Assembly: GCA_012862575.1 (NCBI GenBank)
Contig: BLSF01000075.1
Span: 115,370 to 179,369, forward strand
Length of the DNA stretch: 64,000 bases
From: Parietichytrium sp. I65-24A
Taxonomy: Eukaryota > Sar > Bigyra > Thraustochytrida > Thraustochytriidae
Reading direction: 5' to 3'
Shown here one piece after another: positions 16,611 to 49,048 of this stretch (position 1 is its first letter; each line of letters starts with the position of its first letter). A model generated the notes under the pieces. It was not told where the DNA came from. It did no database searches and worked only from the letters and a program-made list of their open reading frames with translations. Position numbers and translations under genes: made by a program.

Positions 16611-19600
16611 ATGAAGGTGAGCCCAGCGTGGGCGGACTCGGTACCAGAGCGGGATGGTGAAAAGTCGACGATCTGGGACCTGGCCGTGAGCCCCGATGGA
16701 GGACGCGTGGTAGCGGCAGCTGGCAGCCGCGTGCTGGTGTACAATGCAGTGACCGGGGATTTGCTGCACTCGCTAAAGTCGCATAAGGACACGGTTTACT
16801 CGGTGGACTATGCTTCCGACGGGGAGCACTTTGCAAGCGGAGGCGCGGACTCGACGGTGATTATTTGGACGAAGAAAGCGGAAGGGATGCTCAAGTACAG
16901 CCACACCGACTCGGTGCAGAAGCTCAAATTCAACCCGGTGACCAAGCAGCTGGCGTCGTGCACTGCCAATGATTTTGGCCTGTGCGTGCCAGAGGAGAAA
17001 TCCGTGACCAGGACAAGAGTCCCGGCCAGGATTTTGTGCTGTGACTGGACGCACGATGGACAGTACCTCGCGCTCGGCCTTTTCAACGGCCAGGTCTCCG
17101 TCAGGGACCAGACCGGCCAGGAGAAGGTTTGCATTGAGCGCAACGCGCCAGTCTGGAGCCTCGCTTGGAACCCATCGCGCACTGAGCAGGTTCACACCCT
17201 CGCCCTCGGCTGCTGGGACGGCACCTTGTCATTCTACCAAATCAGCGGAATACAACTCGGTAAAGATCGCAAATTGGGCTTTGACCCGTGCACCGTGTCG
17301 TACTTTGACGATGGCAAATATTTGCTCGTGGGCGGCAGCGACCGTCAGGTGACAATGTACTCCAAGGACGGTATCAAGCTCTGCAAGTTGGCTGACACGG
17401 ATGACTGGTGCTGGACTGCGAAAGGTCGTCCCGGGCACCCGTACATTGTTACAGGAAGTAACGCAGGCACGATTTCTGTGCACCAGCTCCGCTTCAACCC
17501 AATCAACGGACTCTACCAGGACAGATTTGCATACACAGAGGGGATGACGGACGTGGTCGTGCAACATCTCGTCTCTGAGCAAAAGGTACGCATCAAGTCG
17601 CGAGATTACATCAAGAAAGTCGCCTTGTACAAAAACAGACTAGCAGTGCAGCAACCCGACAAGATTGTCATTTACGAACTCACCAATGAATCTGACCCGT
17701 ACGACCTCCGCTACCGCGTTCGCGACAGGATTCATCAGTCCCTCGAGTGCAATCTTCTGGTAGTCACCTCTCTCCACATCATTCTTTGCCACGAGAGAAA
17801 GCTGCAGATGTTCGACTTTTCGGGCACCAAGCAGAAGGAATGGGTCATGGAGTCTCCGATTCGCTATATGAAGGTTACAGGCGGTCCTTCTGGCCGTGAA
17901 GGCCTCCTTGTTGGGCTCAAATCGGGTATGGTGCTGCGTCTCTTTGTTGATAATCCGTTTCCAATTCAGCTCCTCAAACACACCGAACCGATCCGATGCC
18001 TGGACCTCAGCCTCTCCCGTTCCAAGCTTGCGATAGTGGACAGCAAGAGCGACTGTGTGGTGTATGACCTCGAGTCGCAGCAAGTGCTTTTTTCCGAGAA
18101 AGGAGCATGGAGCGTTGCCTGGAATGCTGAGGAAGAAAACATGCTCTGCTTTTCTGGTGACGGCGTCTTGAGCATCAAAACCGGGGACTTTCCAATCCAT
18201 CAGCAACCTATGCAAGGCATCGTCGTCGGCTTTAAAGGATCCAAAGTATTTTCTTTGCAAGCGCTGGCGATGGAGACCATCGATGTGCCGCAAAGCGCCA
18301 GCCTGTACCGATACTTGGAAAACAAAAACTATAAGATGGCCTACAAGGTTGCTTGCCTCGGCGTGACTGAGACGGATTGGCGATTCCTGGCAATTACCGC
18401 ACTGCAAGATATGGAGTTCGAGATGGCGAGAAAGGCGTTCATCAGAATCCGAGATTTGAAATACCTTGAGCTACTGGGGTCGATGGAGCAGATGCATCAG
18501 AGTCGCGGGGGCTCAAATCAAGCAGCGCTTTCGGAGGAGGAGTCAAAGCAATTCAAGCAGGAGCAGAGCTTGTTTTTGGCGAAAATATTTGCTTTTCAGG
18601 GCAGATTTCAAGAGGCGGCAAAACTGTATGCCAAGCTGGGCCGAGCTGATATTGCTGTCGACATGTTTTCCGACCTTCGGCAATGGGAGGAGGCCAAGGT
18701 TTTTGCCAAAAACTCGGGCAACATGGACGTCAAGCAACTCATCCAACGCCAGGCCGAGTGGGCTGAAGAGACAGGCGACTGGAAGCTTGCAAGCGATATG
18801 TACAGCGCGGCTGGGCAATATGATCGCGCAATCGAGATCGTCGGAGAGAATGGCTGCCTGGACGAGCTCATCGAAGTTGCACGCGTGATCGACAAACAGG
18901 ATGTCAACTCGCTCAAAAAGTGCGCAGACTACTTTCGCGAATATGGCCACCACCAGTACGCAAAGGAGGTCTACTTGAAGATGAACGATATAAAGAGCCT
19001 GATGCGCCTTCACGTCGAGCTTTGCAAGTGGGATGACGCATTTTTGTTGCTGGAGCAGCACGGAGGCAAGCATGCCGAGGAGGTCTACCTCCCGTATGCT
19101 CAGTGGCTGGCAGAGAACGACCGCTTCGATGAGGCGCAGGTTGCCTTCAAGAAGGCCAAACGCCCGGAGAAGTCGATGCTCATGCTGAAAGAGCTCTCTC
19201 AGTCGGCAATTGTTGAGCAGCGCTTTGACGATGCGGCTTACTACTTGTGGCTACTCTCAGAAGAGCGTCTCAATCTCGCTTCCGACGGGGAGTCTTACTC
19301 TGCGAAGAACTATGTCCATCTCGAGGCGTTTCAAAACTACCGCAAACTTGCCAACGTCTACTACGCCTATTCGTTCATCTCGAAATACACTGACGAGCCT
19401 TTCACTTCCTTGGAGCCAGAGTCTGTGTTCAACGCTGGCCGCTTCCTTATCAACGCAATCGGCAGCGAGATGCCATTCGGAATCTCCAGGGCGGCAATCC
19501 TTTGGGCCGTTGGCAAGCAGGGTGAGACATTTGAAGCATACAAGCTTGCACGCCATGCGTTCGACAAATTGTCCCATCTTCGCGTTCCAGAAACTTGGCT

Positions 19601-20240
19601 TCCACAGATTGACATGGACACGCTCATGATCCAGTCCAAGCCGTACTCCGATCGCGAAGATCACCACTTTATCTGCTACAGATGTTCCACTACCAATCCT
19701 TTGGTAAACACGACCCAGGAGGGAGACGACGCGTGCATTCAGTGCGGTCACCCATTCATACGCTCCATGAAGTCCTTTGACCTCTTGCCCCTTGTGGAGT
19801 TTACGCCGGACCGTTCCCTGTCTGACGACGAGGCGTACAGTCTCTTGAGGTCTGAGCCGGTTTCCTCACCAAATCCTACAGGCGGAGAAAGCAAGGGTGT
19901 GAATCGAATCAGTTTTGATGAGCCACACGCAGACGGATCGATGGATGCATTCTCCTCCTTCCTTCTTGGTTGTGATTTTTCGCAGTTTGCAGAACGAACG
20001 TACGAGCCGATCCCAGTTCCGGAAAAGGTTTTAAAGCAGACTTCCCTCGACGAGGTTTTTATTGTAAGGTGGCCATGCAACGGAAAGCGGTGGCAATTCT
20101 TCAAAAACATCATTCCAGACGTCAAAATCTCAAAGTGCCCACAATGCCACTCCTTCTTCCACGAGGAAGATCTGGAGACCGCTTGCTTGGCTAACGGTGG
20201 CAGGTGCCCAATGTGCAAATGCTCCATTCACTTGGGTTAA
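16611..20240 (+). CDS. IFT122: Intraflagellar transport protein 122 (IFT-A complex)
   Basis: 1209 residues from the ATG at 16611; the open frame upstream of it is only the short-word array. The N-terminal half is a WD40 beta-propeller array (repeats such as STIWDLAVSPDG, KDTVYSVDYASDGEHFASGG and ILCCDWTHDGQYLALG). The second half is a helical TPR-like array (FQEAAKLYAKLGRADIAVDM, MYSAAGQYDRAIEI). The C-terminus carries two zinc-binding modules, C-x2-C...C-x2-C at about 1021-1047 and CPQC....CPMCKC at the very end, as expected for IFT122. Length matches the family (~1200). Role: core subunit of the retrograde IFT-A train in cilia, which also imports ciliary membrane proteins such as GPCRs. Single exon. 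Converges with the next gene, whose stop lies about 230 bases away. Confidence 0.95.
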   Translation: MKVSPAWADSVPERDGEKSTIWDLAVSPDGGRVVAAAGSRVLVYNAVTGDLLHSLKSHKDTVYSVDYASDGEHFASGGADSTVIIWTKKAEGMLKYSHTDSVQKLKFNPVTKQLASCTANDFGLCVPEEKSVTRTRVPARILCCDWTHDGQYLALGLFNGQVSVRDQTGQEKVCIERNAPVWSLAWNPSRTEQVHTLALGCWDGTLSFYQISGIQLGKDRKLGFDPCTVSYFDDGKYLLVGGSDRQVTMYSKDGIKLCKLADTDDWCWTAKGRPGHPYIVTGSNAGTISVHQLRFNPINGLYQDRFAYTEGMTDVVVQHLVSEQKVRIKSRDYIKKVALYKNRLAVQQPDKIVIYELTNESDPYDLRYRVRDRIHQSLECNLLVVTSLHIILCHERKLQMFDFSGTKQKEWVMESPIRYMKVTGGPSGREGLLVGLKSGMVLRLFVDNPFPIQLLKHTEPIRCLDLSLSRSKLAIVDSKSDCVVYDLESQQVLFSEKGAWSVAWNAEEENMLCFSGDGVLSIKTGDFPIHQQPMQGIVVGFKGSKVFSLQALAMETIDVPQSASLYRYLENKNYKMAYKVACLGVTETDWRFLAITALQDMEFEMARKAFIRIRDLKYLELLGSMEQMHQSRGGSNQAALSEEESKQFKQEQSLFLAKIFAFQGRFQEAAKLYAKLGRADIAVDMFSDLRQWEEAKVFAKNSGNMDVKQLIQRQAEWAEETGDWKLASDMYSAAGQYDRAIEIVGENGCLDELIEVARVIDKQDVNSLKKCADYFREYGHHQYAKEVYLKMNDIKSLMRLHVELCKWDDAFLLLEQHGGKHAEEVYLPYAQWLAENDRFDEAQVAFKKAKRPEKSMLMLKELSQSAIVEQRFDDAAYYLWLLSEERLNLASDGESYSAKNYVHLEAFQNYRKLANVYYAYSFISKYTDEPFTSLEPESVFNAGRFLINAIGSEMPFGISRAAILWAVGKQGETFEAYKLARHAFDKLSHLRVPETWLPQIDMDTLMIQSKPYSDREDHHFICYRCSTTNPLVNTTQEGDDACIQCGHPFIRSMKSFDLLPLVEFTPDRSLSDDEAYSLLRSEPVSSPNPTGGESKGVNRISFDEPHADGSMDAFSSFLLGCDFSQFAERTYEPIPVPEKVLKQTSLDEVFIVRWPCNGKRWQFFKNIIPDVKISKCPQCHSFFHEEDLETACLANGGRCPMCKCSIHLG

Positions 20241-24430: not shown

Positions 24431-24600
24431 TTGAATAGTTTGGGGGGTCGAGACAGGAGTCATTCTCGAGAAGGGGCGTCTGGCCGGCGCTCACGCTGTA
24501 CCGGTCGGTGGGGAGCCGAAAGCTAGGCATAGACCAGACCCGGAAATCAGCGTGTAAGAGGGGGTCGTTCATGATGGCGATTCGTTTCTGTGAGCGGGGG

Positions 24601-27468
24601 ATGGGGCCCTGTTTGGTCAGGCGAACATGTTTGTGGTTGGTGATTTTGAGCCTGATGGCAGATGTGGGCTCGTGTTTGTCGTTTGCAGATTTGGGTAATT
24701 GCGAGGTGGGTAGCAAGGAGATGAGCGTGATGTCAGCGCCAGTGGAGCCGTGCGTGTTGTATGACTTGCAGGACCAAACGGGAGAAGATGAGAATGTTTA
24801 TACAATAACATTGGTACAGGTAACCCCATCCGGGTGCAGGGATCATCGAGATGGGGCTTTCACAGCGGTGAAGAAGGAGAATGCGAGGAATGGCGGCAAA
24901 GGGCGCGAAGTCGGTTATTTTGGGGGATATTATATCAGGTTTAGGCTCATATCAGCCGTTGCTGGCAACGCAGATCTGGATGTAGAAGAGTACGCAAAAA
25001 ATCATTCTGCATTAATTGGGAGCATGTTGAACGAGACACAGTCTGGCATTAGCGCACACTTTGTGATTGGCACTTGCTCGACCGCCAGCGCATTCGAGCG
25101 CGCGGAGATTGAAGCTGCTAAGCGGATAGTCTTGGCCCAAGTCGGCCCGCCGTCCTATTATGACACCGCCTCAAAGTATATTTTCGGGATGCATATTTCC
25201 TCCGACGAGTATGCAGTGCCTGCGCTTCAGGGCATCAGTTTCGCGAGGCCTAACGCAACCATAGCCGTTGTAAGCAGAACGGCATCTGAATTCTTCCGCT
25301 CGACCTGCTCCGCGGTGACTACCAAAGCGCAAGCATTAGGCTTAAAAGTTGAGCAGCAGGTGTGGTACGACCCTTTTGCTAGCCAGAGTGGAGCCGTTCT
25401 GACGAACGAAAACAATGTGAGCTTCCTGGAAGAGTTGGCAGACAAAATTTGCTCTGGCCCAACTCACTTTAGCGGCGCTGTATTCGCTTGCGTCTCAACA
25501 GATCTTGAGGCGAACACCTTGCTCGGGAGATGGGCACAGAACGGGTGCGCTCTGAGCGGGCTTTGGCTCACTTCAGCGACTTGGGCTTGGGGTGTGAAAA
25601 ATCCCGCAGCTTCAGCGTTCATGCTTGGAGGGTCACAGTGGCACGAGCAGTTTGGCTATTCAGACGACCACTTTGTTTCTGGGCAGGCGCTGCTAGACTA
25701 CCAACGCGGCCTATTCAATTACTCCACCATTTACGACACTGTTGCTTCGTACACAACAGTCCAGGTTTTCGGTTCTCTCTTGGAGTTTTATTTCCGCGGA
25801 TCAAACGTTCCAAACGCTGACGACACACTCAAGACTGATTACGAGGGCTTGCGAAGAACGCTGCTGACTCTGACATCGGACACGATATTCGGTCGAGTGT
25901 CGTTTGATTCCAACAAGCGCAATGTCGGCCGAGCTGCAGCCGGCTCTCAATTCCTCGTCTCTGGCCGTCCGTCGTTTCCATACCCTTCGGAGGCTGACAC
26001 CTTTGAAAGCACATGTATAAGTCCGCAGGAGACTGCTCGGGCGACAATCCTCTTTCCAAGCCCGGTGAGCCTTGAGTGTGAAGATGGCTATTTTAGGAAT
26101 TTGACCGCGATGCGGAACGCAGCGTCCTCGGTGCTGGGCAGCGTGTGCGCTCGGTGCCCCGCCGAAACCTTTACGCGAGGAGCTCCGTTTGCTACGGAGT
26201 GCACGCCATGCCCGGACGGCTCAAGTACAGACGGAGCGGAGGGCTCGACATTCTGTCTTATGCATGATGAACACCTAATCTCGGCACAACTTGTCGGCCT
26301 CGCTTACGTATTCGTGGTTTTCAATTGGGGCCTCTCCGCTGTGTTTGCAACCTGGGTCTATTTGCATCGCAAGGATCCAGTAGTTCAGATCAGCCAAGCT
26401 CCATTCTTGTATTTGGTGTGTCTTGGGGTTTTCTTGAGCACTGCTGCCATCATCCCGCTCTCCATACAGTCCGGCACATCGGAGGTCCGCCAATTCCAAG
26501 ACTCTGCATGTGTCCTTTCGGCGTGGCTATATTGCGTTGGGTTTGTTGTGCAATTCAGCAGCTTACTTGCCAAGACCATTCGCTTGTATCGGTGTGTCCA
26601 TAATCCGCGTTTGGAGCGAAAGAGTGTAACGGCTCGTGATGTGGGCAATATCGTGTTTGGGGCAGTCTTCTTGGACGTCATTGTGCTTACACTTTGGACC
26701 ATCTTCGACCCCCTCCACTGGGAACGAGTCAGTATCAGCAGCACGATCGTTTACTCCACCAACCTTCTAGTCTTGGAGTCAAGAGGCGTCTGCGTATCTT
26801 CAACCTGGATTCCGTACATCGTCAGCCTCGGAGTCCTTCACTTTTCTCTTTTGGCGGCAACAAACGTGACACTGTACAAAGTACGGAAGCTGAATTGCAG
26901 GTACCAAGAGTCCAAGTACATCGGTTATAGCTCCATCTCCTCTTTTGAGCTTTTGCTGCTTGGAATCCCAGTCCTGGCAGCTGTTGGCGACGGACCTTCT
27001 GCAAGGTTCTTTGTCTTGGCAGGAATAATATTTCTGAATGACTGTGCGTTGCTCTGTTTCACGTTCTTACCGAAGATTTATTTCACGAAAAAGGGGCTCA
27101 ACGGGCAAACCGTCGTGGAAACTCTTCGAAATGGGAGAAGTAAGACGCAGTATCACAGAACGATCTTGGACCCAGAGAGCATCTCCATGTCATCGCACCG
27201 TGTGAATAAAATTGTCCAGAGCCTTCGGAATGCCAACGACCGCGTCGGTGACTTGCAGCTCCAGGTGGGTGAGATGGAAAAGGAGATGGAAAAGTTACGT
27301 CTGATAGCCGATTGCAGATGCCCAGAGTGCGCCGCTTTGCGGAGCATAACGTCGGATTCTGCAGAATGCGACGACACCGTACTCGCAGAGGACGAGGAGA
27401 ATTCCTCAAGCTTTAGAGCTTGCAAAGATGTTGAGGCTGGAAAGGCTTTCTCGCTTGCACTGTCATGA
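24601..27468 (+). CDS. Class C (GABA-B-type) G-protein-coupled receptor
   Basis: 955 residues from the ATG at 24601, which opens a signal peptide (TCLWLVILSLMADVGSC); ATGs at 24571 and 24574 would extend it by about ten residues. An extracellular Venus-flytrap, periplasmic-binding-like ligand domain (about 100-430) is followed by a Cys-rich linker (CARCPAETFTRGAPFATECTPCP region, about 490-560). Seven hydrophobic helices then span about 565-830, with family-like SQAPFLYLVCLGVFLS and CVLSAWLYCVGFVVQFSSL. The cytosolic tail has a heptad stretch (VNKIVQSLRNANDRVGDLQL) suggesting dimerisation, as in GABA-B receptors. Known role of the family: sensing amino acids or related small ligands and activating heterotrimeric G proteins. 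Ligand unknown. Single exon. Confidence 0.88.
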   Translation: MGPCLVRRTCLWLVILSLMADVGSCLSFADLGNCEVGSKEMSVMSAPVEPCVLYDLQDQTGEDENVYTITLVQVTPSGCRDHRDGAFTAVKKENARNGGKGREVGYFGGYYIRFRLISAVAGNADLDVEEYAKNHSALIGSMLNETQSGISAHFVIGTCSTASAFERAEIEAAKRIVLAQVGPPSYYDTASKYIFGMHISSDEYAVPALQGISFARPNATIAVVSRTASEFFRSTCSAVTTKAQALGLKVEQQVWYDPFASQSGAVLTNENNVSFLEELADKICSGPTHFSGAVFACVSTDLEANTLLGRWAQNGCALSGLWLTSATWAWGVKNPAASAFMLGGSQWHEQFGYSDDHFVSGQALLDYQRGLFNYSTIYDTVASYTTVQVFGSLLEFYFRGSNVPNADDTLKTDYEGLRRTLLTLTSDTIFGRVSFDSNKRNVGRAAAGSQFLVSGRPSFPYPSEADTFESTCISPQETARATILFPSPVSLECEDGYFRNLTAMRNAASSVLGSVCARCPAETFTRGAPFATECTPCPDGSSTDGAEGSTFCLMHDEHLISAQLVGLAYVFVVFNWGLSAVFATWVYLHRKDPVVQISQAPFLYLVCLGVFLSTAAIIPLSIQSGTSEVRQFQDSACVLSAWLYCVGFVVQFSSLLAKTIRLYRCVHNPRLERKSVTARDVGNIVFGAVFLDVIVLTLWTIFDPLHWERVSISSTIVYSTNLLVLESRGVCVSSTWIPYIVSLGVLHFSLLAATNVTLYKVRKLNCRYQESKYIGYSSISSFELLLLGIPVLAAVGDGPSARFFVLAGIIFLNDCALLCFTFLPKIYFTKKGLNGQTVVETLRNGRSKTQYHRTILDPESISMSSHRVNKIVQSLRNANDRVGDLQLQVGEMEKEMEKLRLIADCRCPECAALRSITSDSAECDDTVLAEDEENSSSFRACKDVEAGKAFSLALS

Positions 27469-29731: not shown

Positions 29732-31434
29732 ATGCAGGCAAGGCGCCCAGACCAGCTGCCGGTATGGCCCCCTGGCAAGTGGCCGGGCCGTCCGGGGAGC
29801 AAGAATTGGCCCGAAACATCGGCTCACCCCGAGTGGGATGCAATGATGTTGAGCTACAATAGCAGCAAGACCAGAGCGCAGATTCTCAAGGACGGTCTCG
29901 GGTGGCTGCACCCTTTAGCCTCGCCGCTGGACAGTTCGCCGCAAGCTGGGACAGGGCGCTCGCGATTTGTGGGGGATCCTCGCGTTAGGCCTTCAAAGGA
30001 AGAAGGCGTTGAGGCGGTGATGGATTACTTGCTCCCGAGAAGACAAGGGCGCAAGCTGCAGGTGTTCAGGTGCACAGAATGTGGCGTGCAAGTGGCTCAT
30101 GAAGCTGATCTCTGCCGACGCCCAGACGCCCAGCTTGGGTGGTTTGCTGCTACGTTTACACGCACCATGAACACCGTCGTCATCGAGGATCGCTCAGTTT
30201 GCTGCCTTCGTTGCGGGAGGTTTCTGTTTCCAGTGGACAAGGAGCGCGACCCAGACCGGCTCACCCTCCCACTCTACTGGAGAGGTGAAAAGCTGTTTGA
30301 GAAAACACCCGCACGAGCTGTCATTGTCATGGACGCAAACGGAAACCATCCGACCACGAGGAAATCTGATGATTCCCGGGGAAAGCCGAACTTCAAGAAA
30401 TTCAATTTCATAGAAGAGAAAGTTGACGCAATGTGCCCGAATATGACGTGGAAAGGATCTATTACATTTACATGCGGGCGACCACAAAAATACCAGAGTC
30501 AGATGCTGAACCCGGTCGGAAAGATTGGACGATCCGTTCGAGAGAGGAGTTCAATCTCGTGGGAAGAAATTTAGACGAAGCTCTGATGGTTCACCGAGAA
30601 AGTGGCGTGCAGCACTTTACCTTCTTATTTGATTTTGAGCTGGAATCTGTTTTCGCTTCTTTACCCACCCAAGACTTTGCATTTTATTTGAACACAGTTG
30701 ATTCGAAGGTCTTTGGATGGACCGACTACGGCGGGGATCCTCGTGAAGAGTTGTTTCTCAGGTTATGGATGCTGTGTGGTGGAAACTTCCTCTTTGCTGA
30801 CTGGACACGTCTTCCAGGCAGCGTCTACATTCCATTCGGTATCCCTTGGGGCGACGAAATATTCTTCGAGCGCCCAAGGCGTCTTGAAACATTTGAAGAA
30901 CATGCGAATTTGCAACCGTCTTGGGCGGCATTGATGCGTGACGGACACTTTCTCGGCACCTGGGACCTTTGCGAGGAGGAGAAGGCAGGGAGGAGTCTCA
31001 TGCCCGATAAGGCGTTGGAGGTCATTGAATCTGCGATGAAGTCTAGGCACTTGTTTCCTCGGTGGCTCTTTCTTCGAGATTACCCCGAGCCTACATTCGA
31101 GGATCTACGACGATATGAACACGTCTCTGTCATCCAGCCCTGGCATGTCCCATTTGCGGCGCTCGCAAAAGAGCGCATCACCCCACGGTACAGGCCCGCA
31201 GACCCGGACGAACATGTCAAAACAAAAAAAAAAGACTACAACTGCCAACAGCAAAAAGTGCTCGATGATGTGATTTTAATATATTTTATTCTTCTGCTAT
31301 TTAATCCAAAGGGTTTTTTATTAGACGGATCTTTCGAGCATTGTATGCCTCAGGGGAAATTTTTGAAAGACACTGATGCAAGACAGACAAAATTCGGTCA
31401 TTTTGCTCTCTCCATCCCTCTGTGTATTCCGTGA
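29732..31434 (+). CDS. CxxC-rich protein of unknown function, interrupted by a frameshift
   Basis: The first part (ATG at 29732, frame open to 30574) contains two CxxC pairs (FRCTECG and CCLRCG, about 52 residues apart), a likely zinc site. The second part (frame open from 30427 to 31434) is a compact, aromatic-rich globular sequence (FTFLFDFELESVFASLPTQD, IPFGIPWGDEIFF). The two frames overlap by about 150 bases, and I see no plausible splice donor there. One missing base would join them, so I read this as one gene with an assembly error or a recent mutation. A ten-A run at 31224-31233 decides the C-terminus: in either other frame translation stops by about 31275, instead of running into the opposite-strand GTPase gene. 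No family recognised. Confidence 0.5.
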
Positions 31435-33364
31435 GTTCATCGAAAACTTTCTGTTTCCCGTTTATAGCCTCTTCGTGTAATTTAGCCAGTTTGTTGTGTT
31501 CGTCTGGTTTGAACTCGTAATTCTGAACATCAAGAATGAGGTCGACAGACTCTCCGAGAAGATATTGTACAGTGGATTTAGCTTTCTCGAGATCTTGATC
31601 AGTGACAAGGTCGGCTTTCGTGAGCAGAGCGATGACTGGATGGCTGATGTTATCAACTTTTGAACCCGCAAGCCGACCTTTTATCGTTTTCAAAGACTCG
31701 ATATAGCGCCCGAGGATGCCCGTGAGAGGGTCGCCCGCTTCATCAGAATTCATTTGCCTAACTAGCTCACGTGCATCGATGGCGAGTGCGGTGAAATCGG
31801 GCAAAATGGTCCCTCGCCTTCCATTAGCTCGCGCGATGGCTTTGACGTTGACATCCCCCTCGAGCCTTTCACCGTCGATCCACTTGGTAATTTCATCTGC
31901 CCAGTCTACATCACCAGTAAGTCCTTGAGTGTCGTGCAGGAGTATGGAACCATTCAATTCCCCTCGTCGCTCCTTCATTTGAAATTTGAAAAAGTCGTCT
32001 TGGATACCTATTATTGTTCCACCGAACCGGAGCTCGTACTGGCGAAACGTTTGCACCCTGGTTCCGTCGTCTCGGCCTTTGTCCTTCTCTCGAAATTGCA
32101 TCATCGGTGGATGCATCCCGTTCGCCGCGCGGGCTTCTGGCGTCCCAAAACCGAGATATCCTGCAGCAGCACGAATGCATGAATATACGAACGAGCTCTT
32201 CCCGGCGGATACATCTCCGATGACGAGACCGATCAAATGAGCGCGATTCCCCATGCGATTTGGCTCTCGGGTCTCGAATAAACGCCGCGCGACACCAGCA
32301 ATCTGAGATGAGTAAGAGCTCTGGTAGAGGGTTTGAATGTCACCGAGTCGGTCAGAGCGAAGTTTGTTGATTTCTTCGATCGAGAAAAACTCAGCCTCTA
32401 AAGATATTTCCCGTTTGGATGCCTTTCCAGATGAATTGCTCACGTCCACTTCCCCGCTATTTGCACCCACACTTACTTTCATGCTATATTTTGTGGCTTT
32501 GCTGATACTTTGCTCAGAAGTAGTCGAGTAAGATAGTCTCGTGATCTGCGGGACTTGATCTTTTACCGATCTCAAAGTGAGTTGGATGAGCAGCTCCTTT
32601 TGCAAGTCGTCCGAGATGTCCAAAGAGACACCAATGTCCTTGTCGCGCAACATTTGTTTGTCACCGACTGCACCAAGCACGAGGTGGGCATTCTTAAGAT
32701 GCGCAATGTAGTAATAATCGATCGCGTCTGACACTTCCATGTCGTCCGCAGTCGGACAAGAATAACTCTCATTGTAGTTGAGTGTTGCTCCGCGCGACTG
32801 TTCAACAGACTCAGAGTAGCTTGGTCCAGCACTATTGCCAAGGGCCGATAATTGCACCGCAGAAGAGACCGCTTTGCTGCTACTGGTGTGAGCGCCCAAG
32901 ATGATCTTCACGCTCTTCGCCCACAAACTATTCACGAACATGTAAAAGTTTGAGGCAATGAAACGGGCATAGTACTCGTCGTACTCCGACGCAGGAACAT
33001 AAACGCGCTTGCCTTCCCTGGGAAGCCTCTGGAACAGCACCTGCTCTTTCGACCCTCCGCAGTTGGAAAAATCAAACTTGAGCTGCGGATCGCTTACCAC
33101 CTCGTTGGTCACTATGAAGAGCTTCTCTTCTTTCATCAGCGTCTCCAAATTTTTAGAGTATGCAAGGGCCTTACACTGGTTGTCGCGTTGTTCCACATCG
33201 TCCGAGACAACTACGAGAAAGTCGGGAGCAAAGTCCGGAAGGCAATCAGCAGAAGCAAGTTTGGTCACTTTTTGGGCGAACTCGGGTACAGGTTTGGGCA
33301 AACAGCTCAGTTCGCGCGCCCGGCTGCTTCGTCGCCGACTGAGAATGTTTTTCACTTTCTGCAT
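31301..33364 (-). CDS. P-loop GTPase with an unassigned N-terminal half
   Basis: 687 residues from the ATG at 33364. The C-terminal half is a GTPase domain: G1 GDVSAGKSS at 383-391, G3 DTQG at 478-481, G4 TKAD at 582-585, with a ~20-residue basic insertion between G3 and G4. It most resembles the dynamin/GBP/IFI44-like branch of large, membrane- or immunity-related GTPases, but I cannot place it in a named family. Residues 1-330 contain no domain I know: an alpha/beta start (DFAPDFLVVVSDD), a region rich in Ser/Tyr (SYSESVEQS, SYSTTSEQS), and a short amphipathic segment before the GTPase. The stop codon overlaps the 3' end of the opposite CxxC gene if that gene is read to 31434. Function unknown. 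Confidence 0.7.
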   Translation of the reverse strand: MQKVKNILSRRRSSRARELSCLPKPVPEFAQKVTKLASADCLPDFAPDFLVVVSDDVEQRDNQCKALAYSKNLETLMKEEKLFIVTNEVVSDPQLKFDFSNCGGSKEQVLFQRLPREGKRVYVPASEYDEYYARFIASNFYMFVNSLWAKSVKIILGAHTSSSKAVSSAVQLSALGNSAGPSYSESVEQSRGATLNYNESYSCPTADDMEVSDAIDYYYIAHLKNAHLVLGAVGDKQMLRDKDIGVSLDISDDLQKELLIQLTLRSVKDQVPQITRLSYSTTSEQSISKATKYSMKVSVGANSGEVDVSNSSGKASKREISLEAEFFSIEEINKLRSDRLGDIQTLYQSSYSSQIAGVARRLFETREPNRMGNRAHLIGLVIGDVSAGKSSFVYSCIRAAAGYLGFGTPEARAANGMHPPMMQFREKDKGRDDGTRVQTFRQYELRFGGTIIGIQDDFFKFQMKERRGELNGSILLHDTQGLTGDVDWADEITKWIDGERLEGDVNVKAIARANGRRGTILPDFTALAIDARELVRQMNSDEAGDPLTGILGRYIESLKTIKGRLAGSKVDNISHPVIALLTKADLVTDQDLEKAKSTVQYLLGESVDLILDVQNYEFKPDEHNKLAKLHEEAINGKQKVFDELTEYTEGWREQNDRILSVLHQCLSKISPEAYNARKIRLIKNPLD

Positions 33365-35676: not shown

Positions 35677-37440
35677 TTAAAAGAGACCTACGATCTCGCC
35701 TTTCTCATCGACGTCAATGTCGAGCGCAGATGGACGCTTTGGCAAGCCTGGCATGGTCATCACACTTCCAGTCAAGACCACCACGAACTCAGCGCCAGCC
35801 GAGAGCCTCACGTCTTGGACGTGAAGAGTGTGACCCTCAGGAGCATTGAGTTGAGTTGGGTCGTCGCTGAAGCTGTACTGGGTCTTGGCAATGCACACCG
35901 GCAGGTTTTTGTACCCGAGGCTCTCGAACTTCTTCAACTTTGTCAATGCCTCCTTGCTGAACTCAACGTCAGCTGCCCTGTAAAGCTCCGTGGCGATGGT
36001 CTCGACTTTCTTTGTGAGCGGAAGATCGTCAGGATACAAGAGCTTAAAGTTGGAAGTACCGGAGTTGCACAGAGACATGACTTCTTGGGCAAGGTCTTTG
36101 GCACCCTCCCCTCCGTGGGCCCACTGTTCTGCAAGAACGGCTTTGACCCCGACGGCATCGCAAGCTGCCTTCACCGCAGCAATTTCCTCCTCCGTGTCTG
36201 TTGGGAAGCGGTTGATGCTGACCACGGATGGAACTCCAAACTTGGACACATTCTCGATGTGGCGCAACAAGTTTGGCATACCCTTCTTCACCGCCTCCAC
36301 GTCAGACGTGGAAAGAGCGTCGAACTGCACTCCTCCGTGGAGCTTCAACGCGCGGATGGTGGCCACTACGACTGCGCAGTCTGGTGTCAAGCCGCTCTTG
36401 CGGCACTTGATGTTGCAAAACTTTTCGAAACCGAGGTCGGCACCAAAGCCTCCTTCGGTCACCACATAGTCCGCGAGACGGAGCCCGGTCCTGGTTCCTA
36501 CGATGGAATTGCACCCGTGAGCAATGTTGGCGAATGGGCCGCCATGCACAACTCCGAGATTGCCCTCCAGAGACTGGATGACGTTTGGCGAGAAGGCATC
36601 ACGAAGCAGAGCAGTCATGGCTCCGTCAGCACCAATGTCTTTGGCGGTGATGGGGTCCTTGCCGTTCCTTCCGTACCCGACGATAATCCTTCCGAGGCGG
36701 CTCTTCAAGTCGTTGAGATCGGTGGCCAAGCAAAAGATGGCCATTACCTCACTGGCGACTGTGATGTCGAACCCGTCCTCGCGTGGAGTGCCGTTTCCAG
36801 TGCCGCCCAGGCCAATGACGATCTGGCGCAAGGCGCGGTCGTTCATGTCCAGAACGCGCTTCCATTCGATCCTGCGCAAGTCAGGCTTTGGGTCCAAGTT
36901 CCACTGGATGTGGTTGTCGAGCATCGCAGAGAGCAAGTTGTGAGCAGATGTGATTGCATGCATGTCCCCGGTGAAGTGAAGGTTCAAGTCGGACATCGGA
37001 ATGAGCTGGGCGTAGCCACCTCCGCTGGCGCCTCCCTTCATGCCAAACACTGGACCCAAGCTCGGCTCGCGCAGGGCGACCATTCCCTTCGAGCCGCATT
37101 TATTGATAGCGTCCGCAAGTCCAACGGAAGTGCAGGTCTTTCCTTCCCCGGCTTTTGTCGGGGTCATCGCAGTGACCACGACGAGCTTGCCCTTCATCGG
37201 CAAGGACTCGAGAGCGGGTGCATTCACCTTGGCCTTGTATCTCCCGTACAGATCGTAGAGCGCCGGGTCGCTCACGCCCGCTTTGGCCAGGAGCTGGTCA
37301 ATGGGTTGCAGAGTGGCCTGCTTTGCAATCTTTTCATCAGGGTTGGTCGCCGACTTTGCGGAAAACCCACGCACAGCCTGCAACTGCATGAACCCGCTTC
37401 GCGGCGCGAGCCTGCGCGCAACCATCGACATTCTCGCCAT
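35677..37440 (-). CDS. Formate-tetrahydrofolate ligase, mitochondrial, monofunctional
   Basis: 587 residues from the ATG at 37440; the upstream extension of the frame lacks an ATG. The N-terminus (MARMSMVARRLAPRSGF...) is basic and Ser/Ala-rich, a mitochondrial presequence. Diagnostic motifs: ATP loop TPTKAGEGKT at about 93-102, the signature GMKGGASGGGYAQ, and the signature VATIRALKLHGGV. It ends at the ligase domain and has no dehydrogenase/cyclohydrolase domain, unlike the trifunctional C1-THF synthase of animals and fungi. Reaction: formate + THF + ATP to 10-formyl-THF. It feeds one-carbon units to mitochondrial folate metabolism, or runs in reverse to release formate. Single exon. Length matches bacterial enzymes (~555-560) plus presequence. 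Confidence 0.95.
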   Translation of the reverse strand: MARMSMVARRLAPRSGFMQLQAVRGFSAKSATNPDEKIAKQATLQPIDQLLAKAGVSDPALYDLYGRYKAKVNAPALESLPMKGKLVVVTAMTPTKAGEGKTCTSVGLADAINKCGSKGMVALREPSLGPVFGMKGGASGGGYAQLIPMSDLNLHFTGDMHAITSAHNLLSAMLDNHIQWNLDPKPDLRRIEWKRVLDMNDRALRQIVIGLGGTGNGTPREDGFDITVASEVMAIFCLATDLNDLKSRLGRIIVGYGRNGKDPITAKDIGADGAMTALLRDAFSPNVIQSLEGNLGVVHGGPFANIAHGCNSIVGTRTGLRLADYVVTEGGFGADLGFEKFCNIKCRKSGLTPDCAVVVATIRALKLHGGVQFDALSTSDVEAVKKGMPNLLRHIENVSKFGVPSVVSINRFPTDTEEEIAAVKAACDAVGVKAVLAEQWAHGGEGAKDLAQEVMSLCNSGTSNFKLLYPDDLPLTKKVETIATELYRAADVEFSKEALTKLKKFESLGYKNLPVCIAKTQYSFSDDPTQLNAPEGHTLHVQDVRLSAGAEFVVVLTGSVMTMPGLPKRPSALDIDVDEKGEIVGLF

Positions 37441-40157
37441 TGCTCCTTCTCCGCGGCTCTTCTGCTGCTTCTTTCGCACCAAAAACGCACGGCCAGGCAA
37501 ACTATCTCTCCGCGTTCCAGGACTGCTCTTCTTCTCCTTTGTTGGCTCCCATTCACCCACTCATCCCAACAACAAACAGACAAACAATCCATTCATTCAT
37601 CTTCCAACTTCTATTCTTGTCTGTCGCACTGCCAGCGATCCATACATATCCATACATGATGCGCTACATACTAAGCTCCAGTTTTACAACTTGTAAGTAC
37701 ACATTGCAATCTACAAACTATCTATCAATTCATAACAGCAAGTACTCATCAGGGCTATCAGTCAGTCTCCTCTCGCTGTTTGCATTTACGTATTTACGTA
37801 TTTACGTATTTACGTATTTACGTATTTACGTATTTACGTATTTACGTATTTACGTATTTACGTGCACGCAAGATGTGCTAATTTATGGAATAGATAGGTA
37901 AGTGGATACCGCGGAGCCGAGCAAGTCGGCAGCAGGACCGACTAAGGCTCGCAATAGCAGTCTGCCTCAGCCTGTCTGATGAGAGAAAGAGAGAGAGAGA
38001 GAAGTTCACTCTTTCGTTAGTCCTGCCTGAAACTCTTGACCTCTACAACCTCTACAAGACTGTGAATTCTGAATTCTGAATTCTGAGGATTGGCCACACG
38101 CAGGACACACAGGCCACACACATCATACGCACTTGGATCGACAGGAATCGGCTGAGTTTGATGAACTTGATGAGTTTGATGACTTTGGATGAGACACTGA
38201 TCGATCAGTGTACTCACAGTCAGTGCATCAACTGACGCCTGCGAAGAAATATAGATAGAAAGTAAGAACGGTTGTCGTTGGTTTGGTATGTGGAAACTTT
38301 TGTCAAAATTTGATTGATGAATTTGTTTTCTCATTTTGCTTCTTAAAATTGGCAGGAAATCTCAATTGGCTATGAAAGCGAGGATGCGAGAATGCGCGGA
38401 GATGGGAAAAGAAAAGGTTGCAAGTCAATTCACAGTTATCGATCGACCGTTCTCGCCAACTCTCTCCATCGAGATGTATCAGCCGGTGCGTGGGTACGTG
38501 GTCCAAGAGCTCTGTTCGTAGATGGCGCTCGTGGCGTCTAGCGGTCGGTTCTGGTCCACAGCCTAAACAGCCAGCTGCAGCCTGTCTCAGGCTGCACGGA
38601 GGCGCAGTCCAAGTACCTGGGACACTCGACACTCCCAGTGAGAAGAAGCGGAGCTTAAACGGGGGTTCACGATAACAACAGCCAGCCTTTCGTCGGACTA
38701 CGGTGCTTTCGTGGCAAAATTCCTGCCTGCACTTGGTTACTTTGTTACTTTGTCACTTTGTACTTTTGTCTGTCTGTCTGTCTGTCTTCTCGCCCATCGC
38801 GCGTTCAGAGAGTAAATCGCCGGTACTGACAGTGAGTGTTGGAATGTTGCTGAGCTCAAGATGCCAAGCAAATGCATTGCGGAGTGCGCGTTTACGTCTT
38901 TACGTCTCCGACATGCATGCACACCACGTGAGCTGTCTTTCCATTAGACCCGCCGCCCATCTTCCATCCTGCGGTGCCTGCCAGGATGCGCGAAGAGCCC
39001 AGCTCCCGCGAACTACATGAGTTGAAGGACGAGCTTTCCAACAACAAAAAAAGGCAATGCCCAATGCGCTTGCTTCTCCAAGTCTTGGTCGCAATTCAAA
39101 CGCTCGAAGATGGAAGATGGAAAATGGAAGATCCAGCAATGCTTTCTTGAACCGTTAATTCTACAACGGCGCAGAGGCGTAACGCCGGAGCCGCACTGAC
39201 GGCCTCCTATCCGTTAGCAGTGTGGCAGAGGCTCTTATTCAAGTCGGCGTCTCTCTGCTCTCCGGGAAGAATTCAAGCGAGCCTGGCGCGCGACAATGCG
39301 GAGCAACGTCCACATTCTACGCGCTTAAAAACCTAACAATTAGTGAAAAGCGCGGCTGTTTCACCTCCCGACTTGTGGAGAACAAAGACACGCAAAGGCT
39401 CCGCCATTCTCGTTCCTGGCTCAGGTCAATCCGGGAGCCGTGAAACGAAACAATCTGAGACGAAACGAAATGAACGCTTGCGCGAGGCACTAGTTACCGC
39501 CTAGGCCTTGTGCTCGAAGACATCCATTTGTCCGTTCACCATGACATGAACTTCGAACTTCTACTTATTGAGAACTACTTCAACTTAGTTGAAGGTTGGT
39601 ATTGCGGCGCGAAGTTGAACTGACATGTGAGAGTGAGACATGACCTCTAGCTAGCTAGAGCAGGGGAACGCGGAGGTTTTTAACATGTAATCAGAGCAAA
39701 TGGTGAGAAACCCAGCTGCAAGTGCGAGCGGGTCTCACATTTGAAGGGCTCGTTGGTTCAAGTCAGTCGTCCAAGGTCGTTCTCTGTGCTGTTGGCCAAC
39801 TGGAATCTACTGTTGGTCTGCAAGTGCGCCGGTGTTAGACCGCGAGTTCGCTTCTGTTTTGGATTGGCTGACTGTGAGAGGTCTCAATTCTTGTTCCAAT
39901 AAAAGTGCCGAGTAGGAGTTCTGTATCAGCCCGCTGCACGTTTTGGCACTCCGCAAATAGAACTCCCACACTTATTTGGTTTCCGGATCACTTTTGCCCA
40001 AAGTGCCTGCTCAAGTCGTGTACATCATCTTTGCACAAAAGCAAAACCACGCACCCCGCGTCGGAGCGCTTCGCAAACTCGGCGTGACGCAAGGCTACGC
40101 AAGGCAAGGCGGCCCTGTTGGAGCGCGAGTCGAACTCGCTTCGCTTGGAGCGAAAAG
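37441..40157. other. 2.7-kb intergenic region
   Basis: No gene seen. Contains an eight-base array (tatttacg, about nine copies, 37788-37862), (gaattct)n at about 38064-38084, a (gtctgtct)n tract at about 38768-38787 preceded by gttactttg words, and ggaagatggaa words at about 39105-39132. 39160-40157 is plain sequence without a credible frame. Confidence 0.55.
37788..37862. repeat. Eight-base tandem array, tatttacg
   Basis: About nine nearly perfect copies of tatttacg. It lies about 350 bases upstream of the formate-THF ligase start codon (minus strand). Confidence 0.9.
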
Positions 40158-46048: not shown

Positions 46049-48949
46049 CTAAGAGCGGTACCCGGCATTGACGTCAACATAGGTGTGGGTCAAGTCGCTT
46101 CCAAAGACCGTGCTGGAATTTCCATACTTGATCTTCGATGGGCCTTGGAGGTTGATGGTGATGTCCACGGTTTTGTAGTGCTCTGGAAAATGTACGCCAA
46201 CTCCTAGCTCGGACTCTTTCAGGTACTTTGTCAAAGCCACTTCTTTCTTGTCATCGATGCAAAATTCGCCATTCTCGAAAACAACTTGATCGCCGACAAT
46301 GATTTGGCACTTTTGGGACACGATAGAAGCCCAGGCAGGATTGTGCTTGCCAACATAACTTCCAACAGCTGCGATGATTCGCCCAACATTTGCGTCGTTT
46401 CCGGCAATTGCAGTTTTCACCAATGGCGAGTTGACGACCGCTTTGGCGATGCCGTGAGCAAGATCATCTGTTGGCGCACTGTTCACCTTGCATCGGATGA
46501 CATGCTGTGTGCCCTCTCCGTTGCGGACGACATCTTGAGCAAGCTCTTTGCAAATGATTGACAGCGCCTCCGTGACGACGGATTCCTCGAGGCCGAGCGG
46601 CAATGCCGGCATCTTTTGGCTAGAAAGTAGCAGAATTGTGTCTGACGTTGACTGGTCGCTGTCCACAGAGATTCTGTTGAATGAGCCTTCGGCATTCACA
46701 GCTTTGCGAAGGCATTTGTCCAACACCTTTGCTGTACAGTACACAAAAACAGGAAAAAAAACCCTTGTCAGTGAGCGCTCTCTCTCCCCCAACCTCTTGT
46801 GGCCAAACACATACACATACACACACCTCCCATCAACAGCAAAGCAGCAAATGTTATAGACGATATAAAAAACCAACTTACCATCAGCAGTTATGTCTGT
46901 CATGATGTACACAAGCATCGTAGCCATGTTTGGCTCGATCATGCCTGCACCTTTAGCAATGCCCGTGAATCGTCCATACTCATTTCCGTTCTCATCCCTG
47001 ATCACACAGGAGCGCGCCTTTGGAAAAGTGTCCGTGGTCATGATTGCCTTAGCCGCAGGCAAAGCTGAGTCGGATTGCAACGTGTCCACAGCTGACGGTA
47101 AAGCTGAAAGAATCGCATCTACTGGAAGACGCCACCCAATCACTCCGGTAGAAGACGGGATTACCGCGGAGGCCTCGCCGGTATTAAGCAGCGAGCTCAC
47201 GGCATTGCAAATGCGTTCCGCGTCTTGGACCCCGGAGCCCTTGGGATGAACGTTTGAGATCTTGTTGTTGATGACAACCGCTGAAATTGGCGAGTTCTTG
47301 GAAACAATGTTTCGGCCAACCTTAACCGGGGCACCGGGGAACGCGTTGCTAGTGAACATGGCGGCGTACTTGTCGGTTGGGGCGTCCGGGACAATTAAGG
47401 TGAGCTTCATTTTTGCAGGCTTGGAGGTGGGCGTCTTTGGCAGCTCCTCCGGGAAGAACTCAAGTGAAGTCGTTCCCACTTTGAATCCGAGAGGGAGCTT
47501 GGTGTGCTCAGCACTAACAAGTTTTTGCTCAAACTCCTCAGTAGATGTCGAGGCAAGCGAGTCAGAAATTGTCTCCACCAAAAGTTTTGTGGAAGGCGCA
47601 GCCGAACTAGCGGTCGAGCTTGCGCTAGAAGTCGCGGTCGGTACGTGCAGGCTGATAGCTTCTTCAAGCACCTTCATGCACTCGGTAATCTCATCCTTGG
47701 TAATCACAAGTGGAGGGCAGAGACGGATCACGGACCCATCATCACCGGCGCTGATGACAAACACGCCGTTGTTTACACAGTGGGCGATTACCTGAGAGAC
47801 GTAAGGTCCAGGGAGCTGCAGGCCAGCGTATAGCGCAGAGTCGCCGAGCGGGCGGCGAACCTTAAGAATTTTGTCAGGCATCTTCTCTTTCATGGCGTCC
47901 AAGATCTTGATGAGGTGCGCCCCGCTATCCTTGACCATGTCGAGAAATCCAGGCGAAGTTAGTTTGTCAAGCACGACTCCGGCAGCTCTCGTCACGATTG
48001 GGTTGGATGCGAATGTGGACCCATGAGTCCCCAACCAAGCGGCTTCGGGGACCTTCGAGACCATAGCTTCGCTCAGCATGATAGCTCCGATAGGAAGGCC
48101 GTTTGCGAGAGGCTTTGCCATGGTGACCGCATCTGGAATGACTCCATACTCTTCGTATGCCCAGAGTCTGCCATTACCGTGGCGGCCGAGCCCGATTTGA
48201 ACCTCATCAAAAATGAGCATGCAGCCGTTCTCAGTGCACAGTTCGCGGGCCCGAGACATAAACTCGCGGGTCGCTGGGTTGATACCACCTTCGCCCTGTA
48301 CCGGTTCCATGATGACCGCCACAACATCGGGCCCGATGGAAGACTCCAGGGCCTCGATGTCGTTGTAGTCGACGTGGCTGACGCGCGGAATGAGCATCGG
48401 GGCGAAAGGCTCGCGAATCGCGGGTTTGTAGGTGAGTGAGAGCGCACCCAGACTGCGGCCATGAAAGGACTTTTTAAAGGCGATGAACCTGTTCCGGGAG
48501 CCCTGTCCGAGGGCATTCTGGTACACCTTGGCAAATTTAATGGCACCTTCGGTCGCCTCAGTTCCAGAGTTGCAAAAGAACACCTTGCTCATCCCCGGCG
48601 AGTTGGTAATGAGCTTCTCAGCCAGGGAGAGATACGGCGTGGTGTGATAGTAATTCGACGCATGTGCGAGCTTGCCCGCCTGGTCCCTCACCGCTTCGAT
48701 CCACTCCTTATCGCAGTGCCCGAGCACCGTCACCGCGATACCGGACGCGAAGTCCGTGTACTTGTTCCCATTCGCGTCGAACAAAGTGCACTTCTCCCCG
48801 CGCTCCAGCAGCAGCCCTTCTTTCGTGCGCAGACCGCCTTTCCCGTACGTTGGCATCACGTACTTCTTCTCCAGATCCTCCGGGCTCAATGTCGCCAGCC
48901 ACCGTCTGCCCAACACTACGCCCGCTGTCTTCCTGCGCGCCCCCAACAT
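46049..48949 (-). CDS. Acetylornithine aminotransferase-ornithine acetyltransferase fusion (ArgD-ArgJ), mitochondrial
   Basis: The ATG at 48949 opens a presequence (MLGARRKTAGVVLGRRWLATLS). Residues about 25-455 are a class III PLP aminotransferase of ArgD type: CNSGTEAT (127-133), FDEVQIGLG, and Lys279 in TMAKPLANG as the likely PLP lysine. After a Ser/Thr/Ala linker (~455-485) comes an ArgJ domain, with MTTDTFPKAR, KGAGMIEPNMATML and, after splicing, SFNRISVDSDQSTSDT. Thr677 of ATML is the expected self-cleavage nucleophile. An intron at 46881-46732 (150 bases, GTAAGT...CAG) is a multiple of three without an in-frame stop; removing it restores the ArgJ sequence and gives 916 residues. The two halves catalyse consecutive steps: N-acetylglutamate semialdehyde to N-acetylornithine, then acetyl transfer to glutamate giving ornithine. 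Confidence 0.93.
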   Translation of the reverse strand: MLGARRKTAGVVLGRRWLATLSPEDLEKKYVMPTYGKGGLRTKEGLLLERGEKCTLFDANGNKYTDFASGIAVTVLGHCDKEWIEAVRDQAGKLAHASNYYHTTPYLSLAEKLITNSPGMSKVFFCNSGTEATEGAIKFAKVYQNALGQGSRNRFIAFKKSFHGRSLGALSLTYKPAIREPFAPMLIPRVSHVDYNDIEALESSIGPDVVAVIMEPVQGEGGINPATREFMSRARELCTENGCMLIFDEVQIGLGRHGNGRLWAYEEYGVIPDAVTMAKPLANGLPIGAIMLSEAMVSKVPEAAWLGTHGSTFASNPIVTRAAGVVLDKLTSPGFLDMVKDSGAHLIKILDAMKEKMPDKILKVRRPLGDSALYAGLQLPGPYVSQVIAHCVNNGVFVISAGDDGSVIRLCPPLVITKDEITECMKVLEEAISLHVPTATSSASSTASSAAPSTKLLVETISDSLASTSTEEFEQKLVSAEHTKLPLGFKVGTTSLEFFPEELPKTPTSKPAKMKLTLIVPDAPTDKYAAMFTSNAFPGAPVKVGRNIVSKNSPISAVVINNKISNVHPKGSGVQDAERICNAVSSLLNTGEASAVIPSSTGVIGWRLPVDAILSALPSAVDTLQSDSALPAAKAIMTTDTFPKARSCVIRDENGNEYGRFTGIAKGAGMIEPNMATMLVYIMTDITADGKLVFYIVYNICCFAVDGRCVYVYVFGHKRLGERERSLTRVFFPVFVYCTAKVLDKCLRKAVNAEGSFNRISVDSDQSTSDTILLLSSQKMPALPLGLEESVVTEALSIICKELAQDVVRNGEGTQHVIRCKVNSAPTDDLAHGIAKAVVNSPLVKTAIAGNDANVGRIIAAVGSYVGKHNPAWASIVSQKCQIIVGDQVVFENGEFCIDDKKEVALTKYLKESELGVGVHFPEHYKTVDITINLQGPSKIKYGNSSTVFGSDLTHTYVDVNAGYRS

Positions 48950-49048
48950 CCTTCCCTTTCCCAGATGCCCCTTCCTCCTCCTCTTCCCCACACCTGGCTC
49001 CCCACAGTTCTCCCACAGTTCTCCCGCTGCTCTCTCTCTCTCTACCTT

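Follow-up and report, generated by a model that had tools for sequence, protein, structure and literature searches.

In the known cases ArgD, the acetylornithine aminotransferase of arginine biosynthesis, is a homodimer that uses glutamate as amino donor, and ArgJ, the ornithine acetyltransferase / N-acetylglutamate synthase, is an alpha2-beta2 particle that uses glutamate as acetyl acceptor. Some enzymes of the pathway are made as one chain: fungal ArgB and ArgC are synthesised as a joined precursor that is split in mitochondria, and Xanthomonas reportedly has a fused N-acetylglutamate synthase-kinase. Canonical ArgJ (PDB 1vra, 3it4, 1vz6) stands alone, and several of the ArgJ relatives in the PDB are deposited as alpha and beta chains. 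An ArgH with an N-acetyltransferase domain is described for marine gammaproteobacteria (PMC1382215). For the diatom plastid ornithine cycle, acetylornithine transaminase and glutamate N-acetyltransferase are listed as separate enzymes (PMC6723447; PMC5156380), and in Phaeodactylum both were localised to the chloroplast by separate green fluorescent protein constructs (PMC6723447). Here we describe a gene in a 64,000-nucleotide (nt) stretch of the thraustochytrid Parietichytrium sp. I65-24A (contig BLSF01000075.1, forward-strand positions 115,370 to 179,369; hereafter the window) that joins ArgD to ArgJ. Judged from its sequence, this ArgD-ArgJ fusion is real and well preserved. Its ArgJ half is non-canonical: it falls in a subfamily set sharply apart from other ArgJ, whose bacterial members come from Verrucomicrobiota and Planctomycetota, a point absent from an earlier note on this DNA. 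As in the diatom cycle, the two enzymes of this stramenopile would share one organelle, but the diatom enzymes are listed as separate proteins and localise to the chloroplast.

The fusion gene lies on the minus strand, and the plus-strand translation of the same interval is interrupted by many stops. In the list of open reading frames (ORFs) it appears as a frame of 980 codons (46049-48991) with a GTG start at 48991; the first ATG is at 48949, giving a single ATG-to-stop gene whose predicted protein has 916 amino acids (aa) after intron removal. Within the same unspliced frame Pfam finds Aminotran_3 (E 9e-97), complete from profile position 11 to 403 of 403, and ArgJ (E 3e-97) in two stretches, with no stop between the two halves. 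The Pfam matches and the open frame bear out the claim of the earlier note that a complete ArgD is followed by a complete ArgJ in a single frame; its coordinates, domain order and placing of Thr677 (in NMATML after splicing) were also correct, and it gave no strand. Splice signals and the gap in the ArgJ homology predict a single GT-AG intron (phase 1), which is stop-free in frame, the unspliced frame being likewise open. Such an intron would fit the split ArgJ match, and on the spliced protein NF003802 and TIGR00120 each match ArgJ as one stretch reaching the end of the profile. It would lie in the ArgJ part, shortly after the cleavage site and outside the linker. The N-terminus, MLGARRKTAGVVLGRRWLATL, holds five basic and no acidic residues, in keeping with a mitochondrial presequence, and the linker is of lower complexity than its surroundings (Table 1).

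Table 1. Parts of the ArgD-ArgJ fusion gene, in window coordinates
Feature	Position	Strand	Evidence
Entire fusion gene from ATG to stop codon, 916 aa spliced	46049..48949	-	ORF, splice model
Basic N-terminus of 21 residues, presumably a mitochondrial presequence	48887..48949	-	composition; localisation inferred
ArgD (acetylornithine aminotransferase), residues ~22-433, pyridoxal phosphate (PLP) lysine K279	47651..48886	-	Pfam, TIGR00707, conserved columns
Linker, residues 434-483, Ser/Thr/Ala-rich, stop-free, intron-free	47501..47650	-	translation
ArgJ alpha, residues 484-676, with NNKISN, STGVIG and KGAGM motifs	46922..47500	-	Pfam, alignment
Predicted A-T-M-L self-cleavage site (676-679), with the cut expected ahead of Thr677	46913..46924	-	motif, aligned structures
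Putative GT-AG intron, 150 nt, in frame	46732..46881	-	splice signals, split ArgJ match
ArgJ beta, residues 677-916 (spliced), with STSD, GEG, NVGR and C-terminal NAGYRS	46049..46921	-	alignment

Among 107 other ArgD sequences 49 columns reach 95% conservation or more, and the ArgD half is identical at 46 of them. Those 46 include K279, presumably the PLP-binding lysine known from the family, and the active-site columns D248, Q251, R165 and T312 are likewise identical. It thus has the full domain and the PLP lysine in common with described ArgD (TIGR00707; PDB 2ord, 2e54) and is fused, whereas ArgD is a separate chain in the listed acetylornithine aminotransferase PDB entries and in the bacterial loci inspected. 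Among the NCBIfam models listed, TIGR00707 (argD) scores highest on this half, with the ornithine aminotransferase and gamma-aminobutyrate models far weaker (214 and 208 bits). Among 105 other ArgJ sequences 33 columns reach 98% conservation or more, and the ArgJ half is identical at every one of them. The alignment shows ATML, STGxIG, KGxGM and GEG all present in it, motifs that presumably have their family roles here, the threonine of ATML being the nucleophile. In addition, in three PDB relatives identified by sequence (1vra, 2vzk and 3it4) the beta chain starts at the residue aligned to Thr677. The earlier note had held that the motifs of both halves are intact. This is upheld for the catalytic motifs, the self-cleavage motif A-T-M-L at 676-679 among them; the usual NSGxAN and NWGR of ArgJ are missing, and motifs of a distinct subfamily stand in their place.

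In place of NSGxAN, NWGR and STND, the usual ArgJ motifs, the window protein carries NNKISN, NVGR and STSD. It has the family and the self-cleavage motif in common with canonical ArgJ, which differs in these three motifs and in standing alone. The two best relatives in the prokaryote genome scan (best 80 of 591 loci) are stand-alone ArgJ from Verrucomicrobia (L006) and Planctomycetota (L007) that show the same motif changes and are each 51% identical to the window ArgJ in a three-way alignment. We define an NNK-type ArgJ subfamily by NNK[IV]SN, NVGR and STSD together, in one clade, and ran a profile of the window ArgJ, L006 and L007 on 288 genomes of the L006 phylum and 294 of the L007 phylum (phylum names throughout are those of the seed genomes). 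Any ArgJ match was found in 281 of the 288 Verrucomicrobiota genomes and 123 of the 294 Planctomycetota genomes. The scores split into two well-separated groups. NNK-type genes were present in 18 of the former genomes, scoring 699-862 bits where the next match reached 278, and in 14 of the latter, scoring 545-853 bits where the best of the remaining whole-gene matches reached 283. In all 18 and all 14 genomes the NNK-type gene is the sole ArgJ match reported (at most six and five candidates scored per genome, respectively); in G001 all eight ArgJ candidates were scored. In the class of G535, to which the L007 genome belongs, the type is common (16 of 23 genomes). No NNK-type gene was found at E 1e-100 among 201 genomes from the phylum of a Chloroflexi seed, 145 for an Omnitrophota seed and 194 for a Gastranaerophilales seed, nor at E 1e-120 in six seed genomes; the same query does detect the type in the Verrucomicrobiota, Planctomycetota and G535-class sets. 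In the Planctomycetota set, G389 carries an NNK-type gene in two frames scoring 398 and 236 bits (L134, G389:C138; profile positions 1-153 and 185-439), which could reflect gene decay, an error of sequencing or a natural split, and G580 carries a fragment.

For the ArgJ alignment the window was combined with 105 of 142 distinct loci, giving 106 rows; the 37 omitted loci, the split L134 among them, had a matched part shorter than 330 residues. NNK[IV]SN, NVGR and STSD occur together in 33 of 33 NNK rows, the window included, and among the 73 other rows NVGR is found in none and STSD in eight. Identity to the window ArgJ is 46-54% for the 32 bacterial NNK rows and 30-42% for the 73 others. A tree built from the 33 NNK rows plus 35 of the 73 others unites the NNK rows in a single clade (support 100/100), with the window ArgJ branching outside the 32 bacterial rows (support 98/94) on a long end branch of 0.81. 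The bacterial members (L006, L007, L092-L108 and L121-L133) therefore have all three diagnostic motifs and the clade in common with the window ArgJ, but each stands alone in a stop-to-stop frame (439-538 aa) that is not joined to ArgD. Decay of the window ArgJ as an explanation for its odd motifs was rejected, as identical motifs occur in the 32 bacterial rows. In the Verrucomicrobiota set (L006, L092-L108) argB lies within the fetched flank in 17 of 18 NNK loci and part of argD in 13 of 18. Being the only ArgJ match reported in each of its genomes and, in this set, mostly having argB and often part of argD nearby, the NNK-type gene very probably fills the role of ArgJ. Most simply, it represents the working ArgJ of these bacteria, a subfamily barely missed by current models; the seven of the 32 bacterial NNK proteins that were checked all score just under both NCBIfam ArgJ cut-offs (NF003802, 318.8-350.2 bits). 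The NNK-type argJ recurrently lies on the opposite strand to argB in this set (15 of the 17 argB-bearing loci); in the other two, L107 and L108, the genes share a strand.

Taken together, we think it likely that the product of the gene is a single bifunctional precursor of the arginine pathway, probably mitochondrial, that cleaves itself into an ArgD-ArgJ-alpha chain and an ArgJ-beta chain. The protein would be imported into mitochondria, as its basic N-terminus suggests, and then fold. The N-terminal ArgD would convert N-acetylglutamate semialdehyde and glutamate to N-acetylornithine, and ArgJ, to judge from its motif, would cut itself between Ala676 and Thr677. After the cut the C-terminal ArgJ would pass the acetyl group of N-acetylornithine to glutamate, yielding ornithine and regenerating N-acetylglutamate. 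The flexible linker of 50 residues would keep ArgD covalently on ArgJ alpha, with the 240-residue beta chain bound non-covalently. If made as read, the joined chain would give ArgD and ArgJ in equal stoichiometry. Since the known ArgD enzymes are homodimers and the known ArgJ enzymes alpha2-beta2 particles, the fusion could assemble into either a closed two-by-two particle or a chain of such particles. We infer splicing, import, self-cleavage, both activities and 1:1 coupling; channelling of N-acetylornithine would be speculative. More tentatively, and with the balance of our judgement against it, the protein may be a dedicated eukaryotic acetyl-recycling enzyme, in which ArgD and an NNK-type ArgJ on a covalent ArgD-ArgJ-alpha scaffold bring both glutamate-using steps into one particle and pass N-acetylornithine between them, and the NNK motif may mark an altered N-acetylglutamate synthase activity.

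A lasting tether depends on the linker, and it could instead be cut during or after import, leaving ArgD and ArgJ as separate enzymes and the fusion serving only co-expression and co-import. Its length, low complexity and richness in Ser, Thr and Ala are features often seen in protease-accessible segments, and the fungal ArgB-ArgC precursors offer a precedent. On the other hand, the linker has no obvious second presequence-like stretch, and its residues include two lysines and no arginine; we regard such cutting as unlikely.

Several observations weigh against a working self-cleaving precursor of this kind. The window protein departs from three of the 49 strongly conserved ArgD columns. In the 73 other ArgJ rows 40 columns reach 95% conservation or more, and it differs at two of these; it also differs at 16 of the 121 positions invariant across the 32 bacterial NNK rows. 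The spliced protein stays below the NCBIfam cut-offs on both sides, with 397.0 bits against 410.05 for TIGR00707 and, for ArgJ, 342.3 against 351 for NF003802 and 282.2 against 298 for TIGR00120. The ArgJ half is thus placed in its family by Pfam, with the curated equivalog cut-off not reached, and slight shortfalls in both halves suggest a divergent member of both families. No other arg genes were found in the fetched flanks of the 14 NNK loci of the Planctomycetota set, some of which end at contig ends. Finally, third-position G+C is 0.50 in the stretch 451-500, which covers the linker, with no excess there, and is likewise so in some ArgJ stretches.

The replaced NSGxAN and NWGR and the low NCBIfam scores would also be expected if the ArgJ half had lost or changed its activity, making no N-acetylglutamate from acetyl-CoA or using another substrate, so that the fusion were mainly an aminotransferase. 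We consider this very improbable, since the same replacements occur in 32 of 32 bacterial NNK rows, from genomes in which no other ArgJ match was reported, argB is nearby in 17 of 18 loci of one NNK set, and none of the 33 near-invariant ArgJ columns has changed. The dip of third-position G+C in the linker is in turn the sole sign of a chimera, that is, of two adjacent genes merged by an assembly error or by read-through at their boundary. As some ArgJ stretches equally lack an excess, codon make-up speaks neither for nor against translation through the linker. Neither a frameshift nor a stop separates the halves, the only intron candidate sought lies outside the linker, and we give a merger hardly any credence. 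Bacterial contamination, too, is unlikely and was rejected, because the gene appears to contain an intron and is surrounded by genes for IFT122, a Kelch-BTB protein and a class-C seven-transmembrane (7TM) receptor.

We searched for the fusion elsewhere. An ArgD match lay within none of 149 ArgJ stop-to-stop frames from bacterial loci of the first scans (duplicates included), and two batches of long frames selected by eye among the listed matches (12 and 16 stretches) gave none with ArgD in the ArgJ frame. Among the listed matches every ArgJ frame of at least 780 aa was inspected (G483, G762, G726 and G706). In a further set of 29 genomes, 26 match ArgJ, with no listed frame longer than 519 aa. 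Of the plasmid records 1996 match, 16 of them with a single place covering 80% of the query, and five were inspected; argJ comes before argD in L001, L002, L004 and, by its ORFs, L003, and L005 has an aminotransferase gene followed by a separate argJ-like gene. Three scans of viral contigs found no relative, and literature searches for the pair or the fusion, confined to open-licence papers and mostly to their search listings, brought up none that describes an ArgD-ArgJ fusion. The impression of the earlier note that this pairing is unfamiliar is thus supported within the scope of the bacterial frames inspected and the open-licence literature searched. In the L007 phylum sample, two frames continue from the ArgJ C-terminus into ArgB, the acetylglutamate kinase, with argC adjoining: L150 (G483:C856), of 937 aa, and L153 (G456:C403), of 678 aa stop to stop. 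Like the window protein, these frames, fungal ArgB-ArgC, the Xanthomonas synthase-kinase and the gammaproteobacterial ArgH fusion are one-chain arginine enzymes, but none combines ArgD with ArgJ.

The two halves differ in affinity. Rows for the ArgD and ArgJ trees were chosen by best matches, with eukaryotic rows absent, and we claim neither donor lineages nor a transfer event from them. In a quick ArgD tree of 66 of the 108 rows, with support from the Shimodaira-Hasegawa-like approximate likelihood ratio test (SH-aLRT) and no bootstrap, the window ArgD groups with three Chloroflexota sequences, L008, L010 and L012 (SH-aLRT 96), apart from the ArgD of NNK genomes. A single donor for both halves is therefore not supported, as ArgJ falls with the NNK rows and ArgD with the three Chloroflexota. 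Among 83 loci holding both genes, argD precedes argJ on one strand with the matched parts at most 600 nt apart in two, L010 (gap of 98 nt) and L012 (8-nt overlap by mechanical starts); L008 and L005 show the same order at 2131 and 630 nt. This adjacency in Chloroflexota relatives of the window ArgD resembles the order in the fusion, a likeness that is suggestive only, and it identifies no donor because L010 and L012 have a canonical ArgJ. That a eukaryote has an NNK-type ArgJ fused to an ArgD whose affinities lie elsewhere suggests that the pathway of this lineage is of chimeric origin.

Other genes of the window include IFT122 (16542-20240, plus strand) and one for a class-C 7TM receptor whose N-terminal part is large (24508-27468, plus strand), by which the host is probably ciliated at some stage, and a single-domain formate-tetrahydrofolate ligase (35677-37560, minus strand; Pfam E 6e-254) with a basic N-terminal extension that suggests an organelle. 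A 687-aa frame at 31301-33364 (minus strand) contains a stretch resembling a GTPase (GDVSAGKSS) and matches no Pfam family at 0.001.

The NNK type has a restricted distribution in the phyla sampled, and as the window ArgJ and the seven bacterial proteins checked score just under the curated NCBIfam ArgJ cut-offs, it may be overlooked in arginine-pathway reconstructions. Fusions of consecutive enzymes allow direct tests of metabolic coupling, and in this one the partner is an ArgJ, a family known to require self-cleavage for its activity, so that whether ArgD stays tethered or is released would be readable on one gel.

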